Shown here piece by piece: positions 4,450 to 15,037 of a DNA stretch of 64,000 bases. The translations under genes and the position numbers were made by a program. How positions within the stretch are numbered: the stretch's first letter is position 1; every line of letters begins with the position of its first letter. Under the pieces are notes generated by a model. The model was not told the DNA's origin. It saw only the letters and a program-made list of their open reading frames with translations, and made no database searches. Source of the DNA: Aliiroseovarius sp. F20344 (lineage in GTDB: Bacteria > Pseudomonadota > Alphaproteobacteria > Rhodobacterales > Rhodobacteraceae); the NCBI RefSeq assembly GCF_023016155.1, contig NZ_JALKBG010000005.1, forward strand, positions 124,001-188,000, written 5' to 3'.

Positions 4450-6669
4450 TTACTTGCCGTCTACGAGTGACGGATAAAGATCAAGAAGGGTGTTCAAGGC
4501 ACTTCGTGTGGATTGGCTGCTATCCAATACCGCTTGATACGTTTGTAGATCTGATTGCGGATCAGGCTGGGGAGGGTCGTTTAAACCGCTTAGGATCGCT
4601 GAAACCTTGTCCGAGATTGCTCCCGTGGGGCCGTCGCGCATTTGTGAGGCCGTTACTAAATCTGATGTTTGGGCAGATGAAATAGCGGGGCCGTAGCTTT
4701 CCTGCTGCTCTAGATTGGGTTTAGGGCGCCGTTTTAAGGCCTGCTGCCGTAAAGCAATTGCAGATTTCGTATTTAAGCCAGCCAGATAACCCAGCGCCAC
4801 ATCAGGTTTCTGTTGCTGCAAGGCCAACTCTGCTAAGAATTCGCGCGTTGCCCTAGTTGGGGTGTTTGGGCTTGCCAGTACAAAGCTCCGCGCTTTTTCC
4901 GCAAACCCTAACCGCATAAGGCGCTTAGCGAGTTTTAATCTGGTTTCATCGGAGACAGCGTCCCAATCGTTGCGCGTCATGATGAAGGTTAAAAACTCGG
5001 CGTCTGCACTGATATGCAGTAAATTCGAGCTCGCTTTTTCAAGTGTAGTTTGTAATTGAACTTGTTTCAGGTCGCTCCTGATATCGTCAAATTGCGCATA
5101 CCCTTGTGCAAATCGCCCCATGTGAAATAGGGCGCGGATGTGTAGTGTCTGCAGCTCGAGTCCAACTGGGCTTTTCCCGTGTTCAAACGCAATGGACTGG
5201 AGCAACGTAAGGTCCTGATCTGATATTCCGCGATCATTTTCTATCTTGCTTTCAATCAACGCTGTTACCGCGGGTTGGGTTTGTGAAAGGTCATCCTGAA
5301 CTGCGGCGGCAAGATCGTTTTCCGCTTCATTCGGTATTCCCGTTGCGATTTTGATATCTGCTTCAAGTTGCGCTTCTTTCAGGGGGCGTTCACGTCCGGA
5401 CCTTGCCGCGATGTTTCGGATTTCGATCGCGGTATTTGTTTCGCCAGCATCCAAGAATTTACGTGCCAATATGGTTCCCAAGTGATTTCTCAGGTGTGAG
5501 GGCAGCTCCGAGTAGGACCTTAATAGGGCAGACGTGTTAACTCCTTCAGGTAGCGTTTTTTGCGCAAGTGCCGCCCACAGGGCGCTTCTGGTATTGCACC
5601 CGATTTGAGCAAGCCATTGGTCAGCATTTTCTGAGTGCCCGAATTCCATAACTTGCGCCATCATACTTAGACTGGAAATGTCCGGCAGTACCCCATCATA
5701 GCTTTCGATGAGTTGTAGCGCTTCATGTCCGAATGTCATAAAAATTGTCTGTCTGATGTGTGCGAGAAGTAGGTTTTTATTTGGGCGATCGAACTCCTCC
5801 AAATAGCCTTGCGAGTAACCGATTGGTTGGGTGGTTGTGGGGGCTATTTGACCCCAGGTTGCAATATCAAACTGATCATCGGGCAGGCATGCTTGTGTCG
5901 CAATTGTCTGACCTGGACCCACAGAGCGCGCGATATCATGCGCTGTTTGCATTTTAACGTGATCATTTGGGGAATGTGGCAGCGGTTGATACGCGGGGTC
6001 TTCAGGCTTTGGGTCTGGGTCAGATGTTGCGTTTGGTGGTTCAGGTTGATCGATATCCGCTTCGATCAAGCCCTCGGCCACGGCTTTTGAGAGCTGAACA
6101 AGGAGCCGTTGTTTATCTACCAAAGACTGTTCAGTCCCAGCCGGTGTCGGATTCGATTGCGGTGTATAGTCCTTAGGGTTGTTTTGTTTTTCAGAGCTTT
6201 TGTGTTCGTGCCCTGAGCCAAAAAGAGGCAAGAGACTTCTGTTCTCAGCGGATTGAACAAAACCCTCTTCATTTGTGAGTGGGGAGTGCTGCTCAGTTTC
6301 GACACTTGGACCAGCGCCATCTACCAAGTCGATAACCAATTCTCCGGAGGGAAGACGAAGTTCTTTAATGTGGCAGTCGCAGGATCTGAGTATGAGGATC
6401 TCTCCCTCCCCGCCGGATATCAAATCCCCAACGCGTGTGCGGGGGATCAGGTTGAAAACCCGGGTCGCATCAAATCCTGAAACATCAGTGGGAAACGTAA
6501 GCCGATACCCATCATCGACCCGGGATAAGATATATGTGTCAGTCGGCGCGGTATAAAAAACCAAGCGCGAGAAATTCGGATGCTCGCCCGATCGGATCGT
6601 GATGTCACGCGCTGCAGCAGGCGTCACAAGCAAAAGGATCGCTGTTGTCAGGACAAGCCAATTCCTCAT
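4450..6669 (-). CDS. Large exported protein of the motor operon, function unknown (possible MotC-like stator factor)
   Basis: This 739-residue protein has a clear signal peptide (MRNWLVLTTAILLLVTPAAA, cleaved before RDITI), so it is periplasmic. Residues about 21-120 form a beta-rich domain that resembles an AMIN-type fold (segments HPNFSRLVFY, GYRLTFP, SGELVIDLVDG) with a Cys pair CDC near residue 98. A polar linker (about 120-260) follows, then a long alpha-helical region (about 290-640) with helix-turn-helix spacing like TPR repeats. The start overlaps the motA stop by four bases, so it is co-translated with the stator gene. I do not recognise a named family. By position (after motA, with a MotE-like gene in the same operon) it could play the role of rhizobial MotC; this is inference. 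G+C looks lower than in its neighbours (38-55% in four 60-base lines counted). Confidence 0.85.
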   Translation of the reverse strand: MRNWLVLTTAILLLVTPAAARDITIRSGEHPNFSRLVFYTAPTDTYILSRVDDGYRLTFPTDVSGFDATRVFNLIPRTRVGDLISGGEGEILILRSCDCHIKELRLPSGELVIDLVDGAGPSVETEQHSPLTNEEGFVQSAENRSLLPLFGSGHEHKSSEKQNNPKDYTPQSNPTPAGTEQSLVDKQRLLVQLSKAVAEGLIEADIDQPEPPNATSDPDPKPEDPAYQPLPHSPNDHVKMQTAHDIARSVGPGQTIATQACLPDDQFDIATWGQIAPTTTQPIGYSQGYLEEFDRPNKNLLLAHIRQTIFMTFGHEALQLIESYDGVLPDISSLSMMAQVMEFGHSENADQWLAQIGCNTRSALWAALAQKTLPEGVNTSALLRSYSELPSHLRNHLGTILARKFLDAGETNTAIEIRNIAARSGRERPLKEAQLEADIKIATGIPNEAENDLAAAVQDDLSQTQPAVTALIESKIENDRGISDQDLTLLQSIAFEHGKSPVGLELQTLHIRALFHMGRFAQGYAQFDDIRSDLKQVQLQTTLEKASSNLLHISADAEFLTFIMTRNDWDAVSDETRLKLAKRLMRLGFAEKARSFVLASPNTPTRATREFLAELALQQQKPDVALGYLAGLNTKSAIALRQQALKRRPKPNLEQQESYGPAISSAQTSDLVTASQMRDGPTGAISDKVSAILSGLNDPPQPDPQSDLQTYQAVLDSSQSTRSALNTLLDLYPSLVDGK

Positions 6670-7535
6670 GCGGCAGCTTTCTTGATCTCTTTCAGCGCCT
6701 CTTCTAGATCGGTGAAGCTGGGCCGGTGCGAGCCGGGGGTGTTTTGGCGGCCAACTTCAATGCAGATGTTGACCGAGTGGTTGTAGAGATTGGCCACCAG
6801 AACCTCTCGGATGAGTTGATAGAAATGTGCTTCTTCCTCGGTCACGGTTTTCACCTTCGCGGAAAACGGGCCAACCAACCCGTAGGCCAGGAAAACACCC
6901 AAGAATGTGCCCACGAGAGCACCACCAATCATTTTCCCGAGGATTTCAGGCGGCTGATCAATCGAACCCATGGTTTTGATCACACCAAGAACAGCGGCCA
7001 CAATTCCAAGTGCAGGTAGGCCATCGGCAACGGCTTGCAAGGCGTGGCTGGAATGCAGGGCGTGATGGAGGTTCGCTTCCATTCGTTTTTCAAGCACCTC
7101 TTCCACTTGATGGGGATCATCATAGTTCATTGAGGCAGAGCGGAGCGTGTCACAGATGAGCTCAATCGCTTCTTTGTCCGCTAGAATATTGGGGTATCGC
7201 TGGAAAATCGGGCTATCCTCTGGCGCCTCAATATGTTCCTCAAGCGCAACTGCGTTCAGGCGCGCTTGGCGGATCAATTCGAACAAAAGGCAGAGCAGGT
7301 CGCGGTAGTCATCGGGGTGCCATTTTGGTCCCTTGAACACCTTTTTGATGTCTTTGAGTGTATGCTTGATGGCCGACATGTCATTCGAGATCACGAAAGC
7401 GCCGGCCGCAGCGCCACCAATCATTGTGAATTCAAAAGGTAGGGATTTCAGAATGATCCCCATTTTTCCGCCAGCAGCCAGATAGCCACCAAAAACCATT
7501 ACGAAAATCAGAGCGATGCCAACGAAACCAATCAT
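6666..7535 (-). CDS. motA: Flagellar motor stator protein MotA
   Basis: MotA forms the pentameric outer part of the proton-driven stator that turns the flagellar rotor. The 289-residue protein has the expected four membrane segments (about 1-20, 33-52, 165-190, 200-222), a large cytoplasmic loop between TM2 and TM3, and the conserved proline segment GLPALGIVAAVLGVIKTMGS in TM3 plus a second Pro at the end of TM4 (YGLVGP). motB is not adjacent and must be elsewhere. The gene is coupled by a four-base overlap to the downstream exported protein and preceded by a CtrA-like site. Confidence 0.97.
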   Translation of the reverse strand: MIGFVGIALIFVMVFGGYLAAGGKMGIILKSLPFEFTMIGGAAAGAFVISNDMSAIKHTLKDIKKVFKGPKWHPDDYRDLLCLLFELIRQARLNAVALEEHIEAPEDSPIFQRYPNILADKEAIELICDTLRSASMNYDDPHQVEEVLEKRMEANLHHALHSSHALQAVADGLPALGIVAAVLGVIKTMGSIDQPPEILGKMIGGALVGTFLGVFLAYGLVGPFSAKVKTVTEEEAHFYQLIREVLVANLYNHSVNICIEVGRQNTPGSHRPSFTDLEEALKEIKKAAA

Positions 7536-7588
7536 AAAAAAACCTCTGCTATTCTAAGCCTGTCCCCAACTTTCATCGCATGGCTGGG

Positions 7589-7603
7589 TTAAAACTTGAT
7601 TAG
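7589..7603 (-). promoter_or_regulatory. Candidate CtrA-type box upstream of motA
   Basis: Read on the minus strand the site is CTAA-TCAAGTT-TTAA, one base off the CtrA consensus TTAA-N7-TTAA. It lies 54 bases upstream of the motA start, in the only gap between motE and motA. A site of the same form and orientation relative to its gene lies upstream of fliF. CtrA control of flagella is known in Rhodobacterales; binding here is inferred. Confidence 0.4.
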
Positions 7604-7607
7604 TCGC

Positions 7608-8222
7608 TTATTTGGTCGGGGCTGAAGCATTCCGACCTGCCAGAACCACGCTGATTGCATAAGAGGATTGGGGGTCGAGCCCGGCCATGATTTGGGCCGC
7701 CGCCGCAGGCTTCATCTTGGCGATAAAACCTGCCGCGAAATCTGGTTCCATTGCTGCGAAGAGTGGGATCGCCTGCTTTGGTTTCATATTTTCGTAAAGA
7801 GTGGTCAACCGATCCAGATCGTCTGCTGCGGCGGTTTTGGCCATGGCCATGGTGGAAGCCAGCACCTCTTCCGCCTTGGTGAGTTCTTGGAGCTTCTCTG
7901 TGACCCGAACTTCTGCAATGCTAAGAGCGGTAAGCCGTTGCGAAAGTTTTTGCTCTCTTTCCTCCAGCAGCGCCTCTCTTTCTTGCAGGGCAGCCAGTAC
8001 GACAGCCACGTCCGGTTGCGCCGGCTGTGACGTGGTTGAACTCGTATCCGCAGATGTTCCAGACAGCAGTTCGGACAAATCTTCTGCGAATGCCGCTGTA
8101 ACAGGTCCGAGCCTGAGCACACCAGACGCTACCAAGGTCACGGCAAGCAGCACCAGAATGCTACGTTTGCGAATCCGGGGTATTCTTTTGGGCTTGCGGG
8201 TGATCTGGGGTGCGTCCGTCAT
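7608..8222 (-). CDS. motE: MotE-like protein (MgtE N-terminal-type domain, motility chaperone family)
   Basis: The 204-residue protein has a basic N-terminus, one hydrophobic segment at about 23-45 (signal anchor), a coiled coil at about 70-125 (ALQEREALLEEREQKLSQRL) and a C-terminal MgtE_N/FliG-like helical domain (FAAMEPDFAAGFIAKMKPAA). This is the architecture of the MotE family; in Sinorhizobium MotE is a periplasmic chaperone for the motor protein MotC. It sits between motA and fliL. The start overlaps the end of the upstream gene by four bases. The family call is good; function in this species is inferred. Confidence 0.8.
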   Translation of the reverse strand: MTDAPQITRKPKRIPRIRKRSILVLLAVTLVASGVLRLGPVTAAFAEDLSELLSGTSADTSSTTSQPAQPDVAVVLAALQEREALLEEREQKLSQRLTALSIAEVRVTEKLQELTKAEEVLASTMAMAKTAAADDLDRLTTLYENMKPKQAIPLFAAMEPDFAAGFIAKMKPAAAAQIMAGLDPQSSYAISVVLAGRNASAPTK

Positions 8223-8626
8223 TCCGCGGCCTCCACAATGCGATTGCTGAGAAAGAGCGGGGAATTTGCGTGGCGCGACGATGTGAAGCCAACCTCATCT
8301 GTGGTCGGATCCGGAACGCTTTCAGGGGCGGAGAAAGATGGGTCCGGCAAGTCATGAAGGCTTGCCATCATCAATTCCAACTTGCGCGCGGAAACTTCGG
8401 CGCGCTCGGTGAGCTCCGTCAGAACAGAAGCGCTGTGACCCGCGGCCGATTGTGCCTGATTGAGGGACTTTGTCATGTCGTCAACTTGCGCGCTCAGGAC
8501 GGCAACTGCGCCGCCCATACCGTCTTGCAAGTTGTTGAACCGTTTCAGACGGCGCGAAAGGATCAGGCAATAGATGCCTGCACCAAAGGCACCCAGACCA
8601 AGGATAATATCGGCGATGTAGTCCAT
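8219..8626 (-). CDS. Small membrane-anchored coiled-coil protein of the flagellar operon
   Basis: A 135-residue protein with one N-terminal membrane segment (IADIILGLGAFGAGIYCLIL, about 4-23), a basic cytoplasmic flank (SRRLKRF), a helical coiled-coil region (about 40-90) and a disordered acidic Pro/Ser-rich tail. I do not recognise a characterised function. Position between fliL and motE and the four-base overlap with motE indicate a conserved motor or assembly accessory protein. It starts 13 bases after the fliL stop. Confidence 0.85.
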   Translation of the reverse strand: MDYIADIILGLGAFGAGIYCLILSRRLKRFNNLQDGMGGAVAVLSAQVDDMTKSLNQAQSAAGHSASVLTELTERAEVSARKLELMMASLHDLPDPSFSAPESVPDPTTDEVGFTSSRHANSPLFLSNRIVEAAE

Positions 8627-8639
8627 GTCCTACTCCAGT

Positions 8640-9140
8640 TTAGTTGAGCACGAATTCGAGAATTAACAAGTTGCGTACGCGGCCTTCGCCGGTCACCAGC
8701 TGTATGCGGCGCAGCATTTGTGCGCGCAGCTTCACCAAGGCCTGAGGGTCTTCCAGCATCGCAGTGTCTACGGCCCGCAAATACGAATTCAGAATGTCCA
8801 CGACGCGCGGCTTCAGCTTCACGACATCCTCTTCATAGGTCGGCTCGACCTCAAGCGACGCTCGAAACCTTAGATGGCGATTGCTGGTGTTTGGCCCGAG
8901 CGATACGACAAGCGGGTCAAGATCCACGAAGCTGACCGCAGGCAACTCCTGAACGTCCGGCGTTTCTTCCCCTACCGTTTCAGGTGAGGGCTTGGAGCCG
9001 ACAAGGCCTGCGTAGGTCGCATAGAACGCGCCGCCGCCAAGCAACAATGCGCCAACGAGTCCGATCGCCAGACCCTTCTTCGATTTCTTTCCCGAGGTTT
9101 GTTCATCCTCGGAGCCCTGAGTGGTTTCGTCGTCAGACAT
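8640..9140 (-). CDS. fliL: Flagellar basal-body-associated protein FliL
   Basis: FliL is a single-pass inner-membrane protein that surrounds the stator and supports torque. I chose the ATG at 9140 (MSDDETTQGSEDEQ, 166 residues) over an upstream in-frame start, because the family begins with a short acidic cytoplasmic tail. The tail is followed by a Lys-rich stop (GKKSKKG), one membrane segment (GLAIGLVGALLLGGGAFYAT, about 25-44) and the periplasmic FliL domain ending in the typical VRNLLILEFVLN. It is the first gene of the minus-strand flagellar operon, divergent from fliF. Confidence 0.95.
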   Translation of the reverse strand: MSDDETTQGSEDEQTSGKKSKKGLAIGLVGALLLGGGAFYATYAGLVGSKPSPETVGEETPDVQELPAVSFVDLDPLVVSLGPNTSNRHLRFRASLEVEPTYEEDVVKLKPRVVDILNSYLRAVDTAMLEDPQALVKLRAQMLRRIQLVTGEGRVRNLLILEFVLN

Positions 9141-9187
9141 GCGATCCCCGAATCCATTTGTATTGGGTCGATATAAACTGATGGGCA

Positions 9188-9202
9188 CTAACCAATTATT
9201 AA
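9188..9202 (+). promoter_or_regulatory. Candidate CtrA-type box in the fliL-fliF divergent region
   Basis: The sequence CTAA-ccaatta-TTAA matches TTAA-N7-TTAA with one mismatch. It lies 64 bases upstream of the fliF start and 47 bases upstream of fliL, in a 126-bp region shared by the two divergent flagellar operons. One site could serve both. Binding is inferred from the consensus only. Confidence 0.45.
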
Positions 9203-9266
9203 GGGCGATGGGGGAAACAGGTTGACATGACGGGGGTAGAAGCCCGCTCGGAAAAGGAGTTACGTC

Positions 9267-10904
9267 TTGCAGCACTTGATCTCGGTTTGGGGGGCGATGG
9301 ACCTACGTAAAAGGGGTATCGTCGTTGCGGCAACTTTGGCCATGTTTATGGCCGTGATTGGCCTGTCCCGCATGGCCACAAGCACGCAGATGACGCTTTT
9401 ATATGCGGGACTGGAAAGCAGTGCAGCGGGTGACGTGGTTCAGGCGCTTGAGGGTCGAAACGTGGCCTTTGAAATTCGCGGGGATTCCATATTTGTCGAC
9501 GCAACCCAGCGAGATTCGCTGCGCATGACTTTGGCCAGCGAAGGGCTGCCTGCGAACTCCGGCAAAGGGTACGAACTGCTTGATGGACTCAGCGGTTTTG
9601 GCACCACGTCTCAAATGTTCGATGCCGCCTATTGGCGGGCGAAAGAAGGAGAGATTGCCCGCACTATTGTTGCCAGCCCCATGGTGCGAAATGCACGAGT
9701 ACACATTGCAAACGCGTCGTCCCGACAGTTTAGGCAACGCAACGATCCCACGGCGTCTGTCACGATCACAACCGCAAGCGGCACACTGCCAACCCACCAG
9801 ATCAAGGCGTTCAAGTTTCTGGTTGCATCCGCAGTTCCTGGATTGTCGCCAGAGAAGGTCTCGGTGATCGATAGCCGTGCTGGATTGATGGGGGGCGACG
9901 AGGTAACGGCGGACGGGCTTTTCGGCGCGCAGGACCGTGCCGAACGCCTAAAGCAAAATGTTGAACGGCTTCTGGAAGCCCGCGTGGGCTTTGGAAATGC
10001 CGTTGTTGAGTTGAACCTGGAAACGGCGACCGAGCAAGAATCCATCCGTGAACGACGGTTTGATCCTGAAAGCCGTGTGGCGATTTCGACGGATACGTCT
10101 GAAAGCTCCAACGCCGCCAATGACAGTGAAGCGGGTGGCGTCAGCGTGGCTTCAAACCTACCAGACGGGGATGCCGCAGGTGGCAGCGGATCGTCATCCT
10201 CCAACACTTCAGAGACACGCGAACGCGTGAACTATGAAGTGTCCGAAACGACGCGCGAAGTGTTGAAAACACCGGGTGCGGTGAAAAGGCTGACCGTTGC
10301 AGTGTTGGTGGATGGAATTCGAACGCTGCAGGAAGATGGCTCAATCGAATGGGCGCCTCGTACAGAGGCGGAGCTTGAAGGCTTACGCGAGCTTGTTGCT
10401 GGGGCTGTAGGGTTCAATGAACAGCGTGGTGACATCATCACCATCAAGACTATGGAGTTTGAGGCCATCGCTGATGTGGGAAGTGATGCTTCGCCGGGGC
10501 TTCTAAGCTCGCTCAATATTGATGTTATGTCGCTGATCAAGCTTGTCGTGTTGGCGATCGTCACACTTGGTTTGGGGCTTTTTGTTCTGCGGCCGATGTT
10601 GACCGCTCAGGCGACCGAATCCGAGGCGTCAGGTGCTGGGCCCGCACTTGGGTTGCCTAATGCATCTATCGATCGGCCGAGCGGAGTTAACCAACCCAAC
10701 TTCGACGAGATGCCAGCGCAGTCTGCAACACCAGCTTTGGTTTCGGAGGTTCAGCCCATTCAGAATGCCGCAGACGCCGTGGTCGCGGTGGAAGCGGCAG
10801 CTGACCCAGTGCAACGGCTCCGTGACCTCATTTCCGAGCGTCAAACCGAAACGGTTGAGATCCTGCGCGGCTGGATGGAAGAAGATGAGGAGGCGGCAGG
10901 ATGA
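9267..10904 (+). CDS. fliF: Flagellar MS-ring protein FliF
   Basis: FliF builds the membrane-embedded MS ring on which the flagellar basal body is assembled. The start is a TTG (MQHLISVWGAMDLRKRG) with AAGGAG seven bases upstream; 545 residues is usual. Membrane segment 1 is at about 18-37 and segment 2 at about 423-445 (LIKLVVLAIVTLGLGLFVLRP), flanking the periplasmic ring-building domains (SASVTITT and the VSVIDSRAGLM region). A Ser/Gly-rich low-complexity loop lies near residues 275-315. The acidic C-terminus (LRGWMEEDEEAAG) is the FliG-binding tail. The gene overlaps the fliH-like gene by four bases. Confidence 0.97.
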   Translation: MQHLISVWGAMDLRKRGIVVAATLAMFMAVIGLSRMATSTQMTLLYAGLESSAAGDVVQALEGRNVAFEIRGDSIFVDATQRDSLRMTLASEGLPANSGKGYELLDGLSGFGTTSQMFDAAYWRAKEGEIARTIVASPMVRNARVHIANASSRQFRQRNDPTASVTITTASGTLPTHQIKAFKFLVASAVPGLSPEKVSVIDSRAGLMGGDEVTADGLFGAQDRAERLKQNVERLLEARVGFGNAVVELNLETATEQESIRERRFDPESRVAISTDTSESSNAANDSEAGGVSVASNLPDGDAAGGSGSSSSNTSETRERVNYEVSETTREVLKTPGAVKRLTVAVLVDGIRTLQEDGSIEWAPRTEAELEGLRELVAGAVGFNEQRGDIITIKTMEFEAIADVGSDASPGLLSSLNIDVMSLIKLVVLAIVTLGLGLFVLRPMLTAQATESEASGAGPALGLPNASIDRPSGVNQPNFDEMPAQSATPALVSEVQPIQNAADAVVAVEAAADPVQRLRDLISERQTETVEILRGWMEEDEEAAG

Positions 10905-12611: not shown

Positions 12612-13778
12612 TCAGTCTTGCCAATCGCCGGAAAACCCTTTGGGAATCCGAAGAATGCTTCTGTTGACTTTTTCAATGTCCGTATGGCCACAGAAAGCCA
12701 TCGAGATATCGAGCTCCTTGTGAAGCACCTCTAGCGCGCGAGTGACTCCCGCTTGTCCCATTGCACCCAGCCCATATGTGTAGGCGCGGCCGATATAGGT
12801 GCCTTTGGCGCCCATCGCGATTGCTTTTAGGACGTCCTGACCGGACCGGATGCCGCTGTCCAGATGGACCTCAACCTTGTCGCCCACGGCGTCCAGAATG
12901 GCGGGTAGCGCCCGAATGGAACTGAGTGCTCCATCTAACTGTCGCCCACCATGATTGGACACGATGATCGCATCTGCCCCTGCATTCACGGCGGCGATGG
13001 CATCTTCAGGTTCCATGATGCCTTTAACGATCATGGGGCCATTCCACATCTTTTTGAATTGCCTGATCCGATCCCAGTCCAAGGACGGATCAAATGCCTG
13101 CGCGGTCCAGGTGTGCAGAGACGATGGATCCTCGACGCCTTCGGCATGCCCGACAATGTTGCCAAAGAAGCGGCGCTTGGTGCCCAGCATGCCAAGCCCC
13201 CACTGAACCTTTGTCATCATGTCGGCGACAGATTTGACGGTCAATTTGGGTGGGGCCGAAAGCCCGTTTTTCAGGTCCTTATGACGCTGACCAAGGACCT
13301 GTAAATCTACGGTGACAACGATGGCGGGGCAATTGGCGGCCCGCGCACGATCGAACAAACGACGCATGAAGTCATCGTCCTTCAAGGTGTAAACCTGAAA
13401 CCAGAAAGGAGCGCTGGTGTTTTCGGCGACATCTTCGATCGAGCAAATGGACATTGTCGACAGCGTGTAGGGAACGCCAAATGCCTCGGCCGCACGTGCC
13501 GCTTTAATCTCTCCATCAGCGTTTTGCATGCCTGTCAGACCAACCGGTGCCAGCGCCACTGGCATCGAAACGTCTTGCCCCAACATCGTGGTTTTGGTCG
13601 AGCGGTTGTCCATATCCACAGCGACACGCTGCCTAAGATAGATCTTTTCGAAGTCCGTGCTGTTCTCGCGAAAGGTTTGTTCAGTCCAGCTGCCGCTCTC
13701 GGCGTAGTCATAGAACATTTTCGGCACACGTCGTTTATAGATGCGGCGAAGGTCTTCGATTTCGGTGATGACGGGCAT
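12612..13778 (-). CDS. lldD: FMN-dependent L-lactate dehydrogenase (alpha-hydroxy-acid oxidoreductase)
   Basis: This 388-residue protein is an FMN alpha-hydroxy-acid dehydrogenase that oxidises L-lactate (or a related 2-hydroxy acid) to pyruvate and passes electrons to the quinone pool. It has the N-terminal FYDYAESGS motif (23-31), the FMN-binding APVGLTG segment (77-83) and the active-site motif SNHGGRQLDG at 274-283 with catalytic His276. Length fits LldD. Exact substrate cannot be fixed from sequence. It stands alone, with a perfect palindromic operator directly upstream, so a GntR- or similar-type repressor encoded elsewhere probably controls it. Confidence 0.88.
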   Translation of the reverse strand: MPVITEIEDLRRIYKRRVPKMFYDYAESGSWTEQTFRENSTDFEKIYLRQRVAVDMDNRSTKTTMLGQDVSMPVALAPVGLTGMQNADGEIKAARAAEAFGVPYTLSTMSICSIEDVAENTSAPFWFQVYTLKDDDFMRRLFDRARAANCPAIVVTVDLQVLGQRHKDLKNGLSAPPKLTVKSVADMMTKVQWGLGMLGTKRRFFGNIVGHAEGVEDPSSLHTWTAQAFDPSLDWDRIRQFKKMWNGPMIVKGIMEPEDAIAAVNAGADAIIVSNHGGRQLDGALSSIRALPAILDAVGDKVEVHLDSGIRSGQDVLKAIAMGAKGTYIGRAYTYGLGAMGQAGVTRALEVLHKELDISMAFCGHTDIEKVNRSILRIPKGFSGDWQD

Positions 13779-13816: not shown

Positions 13817-13984
13817 CGTGGGGCGTCTGTGCAAGGGCTCTGATGTGGCCATGATTTCAACGCCTGAGACCCGACTTGTTACCCATCTGCGACAGGTGCG
13901 ATCCGCGCGCCACAAAACCTTTACCAAGGTGATTCGCGCGTGCTACCGTTTTGGAAAAACAAATATAATGGCAGGTATATAGGC

Positions 13985-15037
13985 ATGAAGAAGGGCTACG
14001 AGGGCACTTTTGTCATCTCTTGGGCGCAGACGAAGGTCGACATGGCGGACAATGCTCCGCTTAGGGCTTTGGTTGCGGGTTCAGATTGGCAATGGAGTGG
14101 CAAAGCACTGAGAGTTGATCGATCACGAGAGCTCGAATTGCTTCAGAATGTAGGTGAGCAATCAGACATACGAAAACGCGCAGCGGTGTTTGTGCATCAG
14201 CTGGTTGGCGCCGCAACGATTGGGGCAGATGGCCTCGATATGTTGGCAGAAGACGATCCGCGACTGAATGTCGGGTTCGAAGTTACCGATGGTTATGAAA
14301 GCTATCTGGTTTCGTTGGTGGTTTCACCAAATGGCGGATGTCCCTTGTTGGTATTCGCGGGCGCTGTTCCGCCGTCAGAAACAACCTTGCGTGTTGTGCG
14401 CGCCAATATGGTTGCGACATTCAATGATGTGCTGACCGAACAACCATCAGGCATGGCGGTTCTGACGCAAGGCACACGGGTGCGCACACCGTCTGGTGAG
14501 TGCCCTGTTGAAAAACTGCGCGAGGGCAGCATCGTGCTGACCCGCGAACATGGCGGCCAGCCCGTTTTGTGGGTTGGGCGTCGTCAGGTTTCGGCTGCGC
14601 GCATGTTGGTTAATCCAGAAACCAAGCCGGTCCGCTTACGTGCCGGTGCGATCCGATCTGGCCAGCCAGATGCGGATCTATTGGTTTCACCCCATCAGCA
14701 GATTTTAGTCTCGGGCATGCGGGCGCAAAAACTGATTGGTCAGGATGAAGTTCTTGCCAGTGCTGCGGATCTTGTTGATGGCAGCCTGATTTCAACGGAT
14801 CGTATCGCGGAAGAAACCAGCTACTATCAGGTCCTGTTGGGGCGGCACGAGGTGATTTGGGCCAATGGTGTTCCATTGGAAAGCCAGCATCCGGCCTTTT
14901 CCGATTTGGGCTCCACACAGTCCGACCATCAAAGCAGGCTGACCAGCCTTTTCCCGGGACTTGGTGGGTTCACAGCGCAATCCGACGATAATGTTCATGA
15001 AATCCATGGTGCCAAAGGGCAAATCGGTGTCGCCTAG
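13985..15037 (+). CDS. Hint (hedgehog/intein) domain protein, catalytic cysteine replaced
   Basis: The ATG at 13985 (MKKGYEGTFVISWAQTK) gives 350 residues. Residues 1-150 are an unrecognised beta-rich domain. From about 165 it matches the Rhodobacterales stand-alone Hint domain: QGTRVRTPSGECPVEKLREG, HGGQPVLWVGRR, LLVSPHQQILVSG and HEVIWANGVPLES. In functional members the domain opens with Cys (CFxxGT); here the aligned position reads VLTQGT, so the self-cleaving nucleophile seems absent. There is no signal peptide. Function unknown. A hairpin terminator follows. Confidence 0.82.
   Translation: MKKGYEGTFVISWAQTKVDMADNAPLRALVAGSDWQWSGKALRVDRSRELELLQNVGEQSDIRKRAAVFVHQLVGAATIGADGLDMLAEDDPRLNVGFEVTDGYESYLVSLVVSPNGGCPLLVFAGAVPPSETTLRVVRANMVATFNDVLTEQPSGMAVLTQGTRVRTPSGECPVEKLREGSIVLTREHGGQPVLWVGRRQVSAARMLVNPETKPVRLRAGAIRSGQPDADLLVSPHQQILVSGMRAQKLIGQDEVLASAADLVDGSLISTDRIAEETSYYQVLLGRHEVIWANGVPLESQHPAFSDLGSTQSDHQSRLTSLFPGLGGFTAQSDDNVHEIHGAKGQIGVA

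Follow-up and report, generated by a model that had tools for sequence, protein, structure and literature searches.

The gene directly after motA in a flagellar operon of Aliiroseovarius sp. F20344 is a member of the MotK family

We analysed a 64,000-nucleotide stretch of the genome of Aliiroseovarius sp. F20344 (contig NZ_JALKBG010000005.1, positions 124,001 to 188,000; hereafter the window), with a focus on the 739-residue open reading frame (ORF) that follows motA at 4450..6669 on the reverse strand. Taken as a whole, the evidence is very probably best explained if this gene is motK, encoding a stator and E-ring partner that the flagellum needs for turning, which provides a name and a likely function for a gene without a match in Pfam or NCBIfam. 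What was shown directly is the protein's place in the MotK family, the order of the genes, the folds predicted for its domains and the co-occurrence with MotE. The find itself is an ordinary one, a member of the already described MotK family, and it brings modest additions: a further member, an extension of the family across the class at the level of sequence and the occurrence of MotE proteins without cysteine, the last two counted as new without a dedicated literature search. An earlier note, made from the DNA letters alone, had read the gene correctly and with good reasons, but the family that it took to be undescribed is MotK (PMC10954123), and the parallel between MotC, MotK and PflA has likewise been drawn in print (PMC13023049, PMC11870540).

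MotK was described in 2024 in Cereibacter sphaeroides, where it is encoded in a fliL2-pflI-motE-motA2-motK operon. The available sections of that paper (PMC10954123) present a periplasmic protein of 652 residues with a signal peptide, an AMIN-like N-terminus, a disordered linker and a TPR-like remainder, and a MotE of 185 residues. Mutants in motK or motE build flagella that are paralysed, and MotK associates in vitro with both MotE and MotB2 and requires MotA2 and MotB2 for its localisation (PMC10954123). In the accessible parts of two further papers, MotE is grouped with FlgY and FlbB as an E-ring protein, and MotK, MotC and CC_2058 are grouped with PflA as spoke proteins (PMC13023049, PMC11870540); an excerpt of another names CC_2058 as FssB, a TPR protein of a stator-dependent signalling pathway (PMC7885107).

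The window carries fliL, a pflI-like gene, motE, motA and motK in the order of the published operon, and the motK ORF begins with an ATG codon. As the earlier note had stated, motK overlaps motA (6666..7535, reverse strand) by four bases, and a MotE-family gene (7608..8222, reverse strand) lies upstream of motA; its 204-residue product is 45% identical over 191 residues to the MotE of a reference locus, L041. We judged L041 (genome G051) to be C. sphaeroides-like, as its MotK and MotE have the published lengths of 652 and 185 residues; the only cysteine of its MotE, at precursor position 49, corresponds to mature position 20, in exact agreement with the published C. sphaeroides protein, and the MotK of L041 shares 91% identity with its Cereibacter johrii counterpart. 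The window protein matches the MotK of L041 with 27% identity over 599 residues (E = 6e-46).

Relatives of the window protein are widespread in its own family, Rhodobacteraceae, where they were found in 131 of 198 genomes with the window protein as a single query and in 132 with a 30-sequence profile (A1). We examined 110 loci, from as many of the 131 genomes, and motA lies directly upstream of the motK homologue in 107 of them, with the four-base overlap in 97. Two of the remaining loci (L076 and L080) stand at contig ends. In the third, L093 (genome G175), a transposase-like ORF (2-1036; IS110-like by eye) immediately precedes motK, and the motA of that genome sits on the same contig, 436 bases from its opposite end, which makes an insertion between motA and motK likely there. 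An overlapping set of named records, located by scanning the genome_contigs collection with the MotA of L041, gave a similar picture: around the best MotA matches, a MotK-like ORF follows motA in 77 of 80 records, and in the other 3 the sequence stops within 761 bases past motA (nine of the 107 locus proteins are also present in this set of 77). When genome_contigs was scanned with only the window protein as query, no relative came up, and searches of Pfam, NCBIfam and the PDB sequences with it returned nothing at or near significance. The window ORF is no chance ORF. The single annotated record seen to contain a relative is the flagellar cluster on plasmid pD4M1D of Paroceanicella profunda (L328); there the MotK-like gene after motA, again with the four-base overlap, is labelled hypothetical protein.

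The domain architecture of the window protein agrees with that of MotK. An AlphaFold2 model built from 30 sequences (mean predicted local distance difference test score, pLDDT, 79) contains a β-sandwich at residues 21-117, a disordered linker and a helical solenoid at about 264-647, which upholds the AMIN-like N-terminus and TPR-like helical region proposed from the letters alone. Residues 1-20 read by eye as a Sec signal (hydrophobic core, PAAA|RD), and a C-terminal helix spans 707-731. The β-sandwich part (residues 21-122, coded by 6304..6609 on the reverse strand) was also folded alone, with a pLDDT of 96.2, and this lone model resembles the AMIN domains of PilQ (Z 11.4; root-mean-square deviation, rmsd, 3.0 over 98 residues) and AmiC (Z 11.2; rmsd 2.2 over 97), followed by a Synechocystis hypothetical protein (Z 9.5) and small heat-shock proteins (Z at most 8.7). 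The solenoid matches TPR and PPR proteins with Z up to 15.3. Among 30 MotK members at E ≤ 0.1, the Pfam family AMIN is matched by one and AMIN-like and TPR_19 by five each, none of the three being matched by the window protein. Cysteines 261 and 358 are invariant in all 30, and their columns hold cysteine in 159 of 159 aligned MotK proteins (151 of 151 without repeats); the C-x-C pair at 97 and 99 is present in 139 of the 151 and absent as a pair in the other 12. The 261/358 pair, together with the C-x-C-H motif that is kept or lost only as a pair, suggests one or two disulfides.

The closeness of the AMIN fold to that of AmiC, and the exported character read by eye, would also suit a cell-wall-acting or cell-wall-targeting protein that uses its AMIN domain as AmiC does and stands in the flagellar operon incidentally, for example opening peptidoglycan for the motor. 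We regard this as very improbable: no amidase family appears among the listed matches of the 30 MotK relatives, the window protein has no match in Pfam or NCBIfam at all, MotK co-occurs with MotE, and C. sphaeroides motK mutants still build their flagella yet cannot turn them, according to the available sections of PMC10954123.

The co-occurrence, which the earlier note had proposed as a check on a link to MotE, bears the link out. In the 198 family genomes MotE was found in 141 with a 30-sequence profile (A3), and a comparison of the two match lists by hand gave 129 genomes with both MotK and MotE, 3 with MotK only, 12 with MotE only and 54 with neither. Two of the MotK-only genomes (G040 and G061) have the locus at contig ends. 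Among the 12 with MotE only, one match is marginal (G072, 8e-4) and in two genomes (G028 and G113) the contig stops where motK would be expected. The other nine carry a distinctly diverged MotE (E from 1e-18 to 4e-24) and a motA product 49-59% identical to that of the window; no MotK was detected in the stretches around the diverged MotE genes (10 loci and L211), nor genome-wide in those nine with the A1 profile. These genomes (G006, G023, G044, G107, G137, G138, G139, G170 and G177) thus form a second, diverged MotA/MotE type without detectable MotK, represented by loci L210-L218 and L276-L283, with second copies in G088 and G092 (L284 and L285).

Partnership with MotE is also what MotK shares with rhizobial MotC, and the earlier note had suggested a MotC-like stator factor. 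This held in so far as the gene would supply Rhodobacterales with a periplasmic AMIN and TPR partner of MotE that fills the part of MotC; it did not hold for likeness to MotC at the level of sequence, as no NCBIfam match was found and profile-profile comparison, the check proposed for it, fell short. For that comparison we collected six MotC proteins from Phyllobacterium, Sinorhizobium and Shinella, three of them annotated as MotC and two from unannotated records; the Sinorhizobium meliloti protein used is a 'chemotaxis protein' encoded between motB and fliK. Aligned with hhalign, a MotK profile of 181 sequences reached a probability of 1.4% (E = 0.036) against a thin MotC profile (6 sequences, Neff 2.2), and MotK-like proteins of other families, discussed below, reached 11.9%. 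With so small a MotC profile, and with sequence signal being lost in TPR proteins, the value of 1.4% neither demonstrates distant homology nor excludes it.

A stronger version of this idea holds that the window protein is a diverged MotC, with a common ancestor and role shared with the rhizobial protein and with MotE as its dedicated chaperone. Beyond the shared partner, residues 330-562 of MotK align collinearly with 80-315 of MotC, both in helical repeats; the 1.4% exceeds all four controls, namely a YbgF set against MotC (0.3%), MotE against MotC (0.2%), MotK against the YbgF set (0.0%) and MotK against MotE (0.3%), the YbgF set being a rough control made of the longest open frame per locus, unchecked. 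A short C-terminal helix, S-x-x-x-R-x-x-[LI]-x-x-LL, can be read by eye in both proteins, and the homology of MotC and MotK has been argued in the accessible part of PMC13023049. We nevertheless consider this version rather unlikely. The match of MotK to MotC is not significant, and the window protein hits 0 NCBIfam families at E ≤ 0.1, MotC models included; for comparison, a Phyllobacterium MotC scores 357 bits with the MotC model, itself below that model's cut-off of 776. The MotC gene comes after motB, whereas the window gene comes after motA, with the only MotB_plug match of the genome on another contig. In C. sphaeroides, moreover, the stability of MotE depends on MotK and not the reverse, the opposite of the chaperone case in S. 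meliloti (PMC10954123).

Under the assignment to MotK, a working model can be outlined by analogy with C. sphaeroides, from which periplasmic location, binding of MotE and MotB and a role in rotation would carry over to the source organism. MotK would be exported to the periplasm, where its N-terminal AMIN domain may hold peptidoglycan or neighbouring ring proteins while its TPR solenoid, the putative MotE-binding part, would bind MotE and MotB. The basal body is probably encircled by an E-ring of MotE, to which MotK may contribute the spokes, and stators would be recruited or opened through the MotK-MotE-MotB connection, so that the flagellum turns.

Some observations weigh against the assignment to MotK. 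The identity of the window protein to its C. sphaeroides-like counterpart is low, at 27%. A Foldseek search with the AMIN model gave no match at E ≤ 0.001, AmiC coming first at E = 9.3e-3, and for helical repeats a Z below about 13 may reflect merely a common arrangement. The top Foldseek match of the whole model, in itself a point in favour, is 9hmf_K, a chain of the periplasmic motor scaffold of Campylobacter jejuni (E = 3.6e-6), among listed matches that are otherwise mostly general TPR and PPR proteins; its superposition is poor (TM 0.15, rmsd 40.9) and may support, at most, a shared domain order. We presume this chain to be PflA from its 773 residues and the length of PflA. The 50 matches listed in the Z-scored structure comparison do not include this scaffold, an absence that we do not count as evidence against. 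Further, genome G056 is a real exception to the co-occurrence, as it has MotK without a MotE match; its MotK has 533 residues, and the motA-motK pair adjoins two ORFs that to the eye resemble ubiE and ubiB (L224). Finally, the MotE of the window lacks the cysteine that MotE needs for stability in C. sphaeroides and S. meliloti.

This last point concerns more than one genome. In C. sphaeroides the variant MotE-C20A lacks stability, and PMC10954123 cites a comparable finding for MotE-C53A of S. meliloti. The window MotE contains no cysteine. Its match to the collar_FlbB family lies below the cut-off (E = 1.2e-5, 25 bits, cut-off 110), and all of 30 family MotE proteins match collar_FlbB at E ≤ 0.1 (best 1.6e-9). 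In 165 Rhodobacteraceae MotE domains, one alignment column holds a cysteine in 123, and 37 domains have none; 27 of the 37 also have none in frame within 25 residues further upstream. With repeats removed, 157 domains remain, 116 with the column cysteine, 36 without and 26 by the stricter upstream count, so that at least 25 other Rhodobacteraceae MotE proteins are cysteine-free like that of the window. On a FastTree phylogeny of MotA (165 rows, branch support unchecked), presence of the MotE cysteine changes at least 15 times. Cross-tables of the MotE cysteine against the MotK cysteines revealed no link. Given the cysteine-free domains and these repeated changes, it is unlikely that the MotE disulfide is needed everywhere, and with the cysteine-free proteins one could test directly whether the disulfide belongs to the mechanism or only serves stability in some lineages.

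To place MotK more widely, we turned to 142 genomes of Alphaproteobacteria, about one per family. MotE was found in 82 of these, and the MotK profile A1 matches 65 at E ≤ 0.1, in 46 of them no more than 10 kb from MotE and in the same orientation; two of these 46 genomes belong to the window's own family, and further pieces of the same ORF were dropped before genomes were counted. Outside the family most matches cover only a portion, above all the AMIN part or the TPR end, and some are single low-scoring pieces. We fetched 20 MotE loci outside the family, 13 with an A1 match nearby and 7 picked without one. At 18 of the 20 (L306-L310 and L312-L324), a profile of 107 MotK proteins recognised an ORF of 750-1,354 residues, with 17 of the 18 ORFs between 988 and 1,354; in ten, one of them (L322) a weak case, the AMIN part is matched twice. 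Counts of this kind are minimum values, as the 107-protein profile missed a MotK-like match in G234 that A1 had found. In profile-profile comparison, 13 MotK-like proteins of other families align to MotK with probabilities of 99.9% for the TPR part and 66% for the AMIN part; on this comparison, the MotE neighbour in these families is a MotK relative. The available sections of the MotK paper (PMC10954123) record relatives in Paracoccaceae and Roseobacteraceae and link those of Caulobacteraceae by structure, not by BLAST; a profile built from the window protein reaches distant MotE neighbours.

Put together, these results would fit a broader proposal, for which we see roughly even chances: that across the class MotE is usually partnered in the E-ring by MotK, in most families at about 1,000-1,350 residues and often with two AMIN-like domains, that the single-AMIN form of Rhodobacterales is a shortened branch, and that the MotE ring does without a disulfide in a good part of Rhodobacteraceae, the source organism included, which would leave the disulfide outside the basic mechanism.

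The remaining features of the locus complete the operon. The window motA matches TIGR03818 with 359 bits (cut-off 304), and 72 bases separate it from the end of motE. Upstream, the pflI-like gene (8219..8626, reverse strand; 135 residues) overlaps motE by four bases and occupies the place of pflI in the published operon; residues 1-110 of its product are 56% identical to the counterpart in L041, and its DUF6468 match stays below the cut-off of that family. For fliL (8640..9275, reverse strand; PF03748), the listed ORF starts at a GTG, the more probable start codon being the in-frame ATG at 9140. Downstream of motK, the ORF list shows what by eye look like flhA, fliR and flhB. The sole MotB_plug match of the source genome is on contig C3 (599111-599272) and the window is on C5, so motB stands apart from motA. 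We searched for a CtrA-like site because C. sphaeroides has one before fliL2. The CtrA-like motif TTAA-N7-TTAA has 0 matches in the window, and the form with a final C and one mismatch allowed has 4, with 4.0 expected, none of them before fliL. Elsewhere in the window, a 365-residue ORF (13940-15037), Hint-domain-like by eye, stands beside an ORF for an LldD-like FMN-dependent dehydrogenase (12612-13778).

Compared with known systems, the window protein is closest to MotK of C. sphaeroides, with which it shares the place in the operon, the signal peptide, the AMIN-like N-terminus, the disordered linker, the TPR-like helical part and, through the C. sphaeroides-like protein of L041, significant sequence similarity; it differs in length (739 against 652 residues), in its 27% identity and in a MotE partner without cysteine. 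With MotC of S. meliloti (PRK12798) it has in common that both would be periplasmic helical-repeat proteins partnering MotE, as published, whereas MotC has no reported AMIN domain, measures 400-441 residues in the six proteins compared, is encoded after motB and gives no significant sequence-profile match to the window protein. CC_2058 (FssB) of Caulobacter crescentus, likened here by description, has been published as a distant MotK-like AMIN and TPR protein beside motE with a Mot- mutant; the MotK-like ORFs of other families are mostly larger than the window protein, and in 10 of the 18 an AMIN-like match occurs twice. PflA of Campylobacter jejuni, according to the accessible parts of PMC11870540, shows the same order of AMIN-like β-sandwich, flexible loop and TPR solenoid and has as its partner an E-ring protein related to MotE; the whole-chain superposition of the MotK model is poor, and the best Foldseek match of that model is nonetheless a chain of the Campylobacter scaffold.

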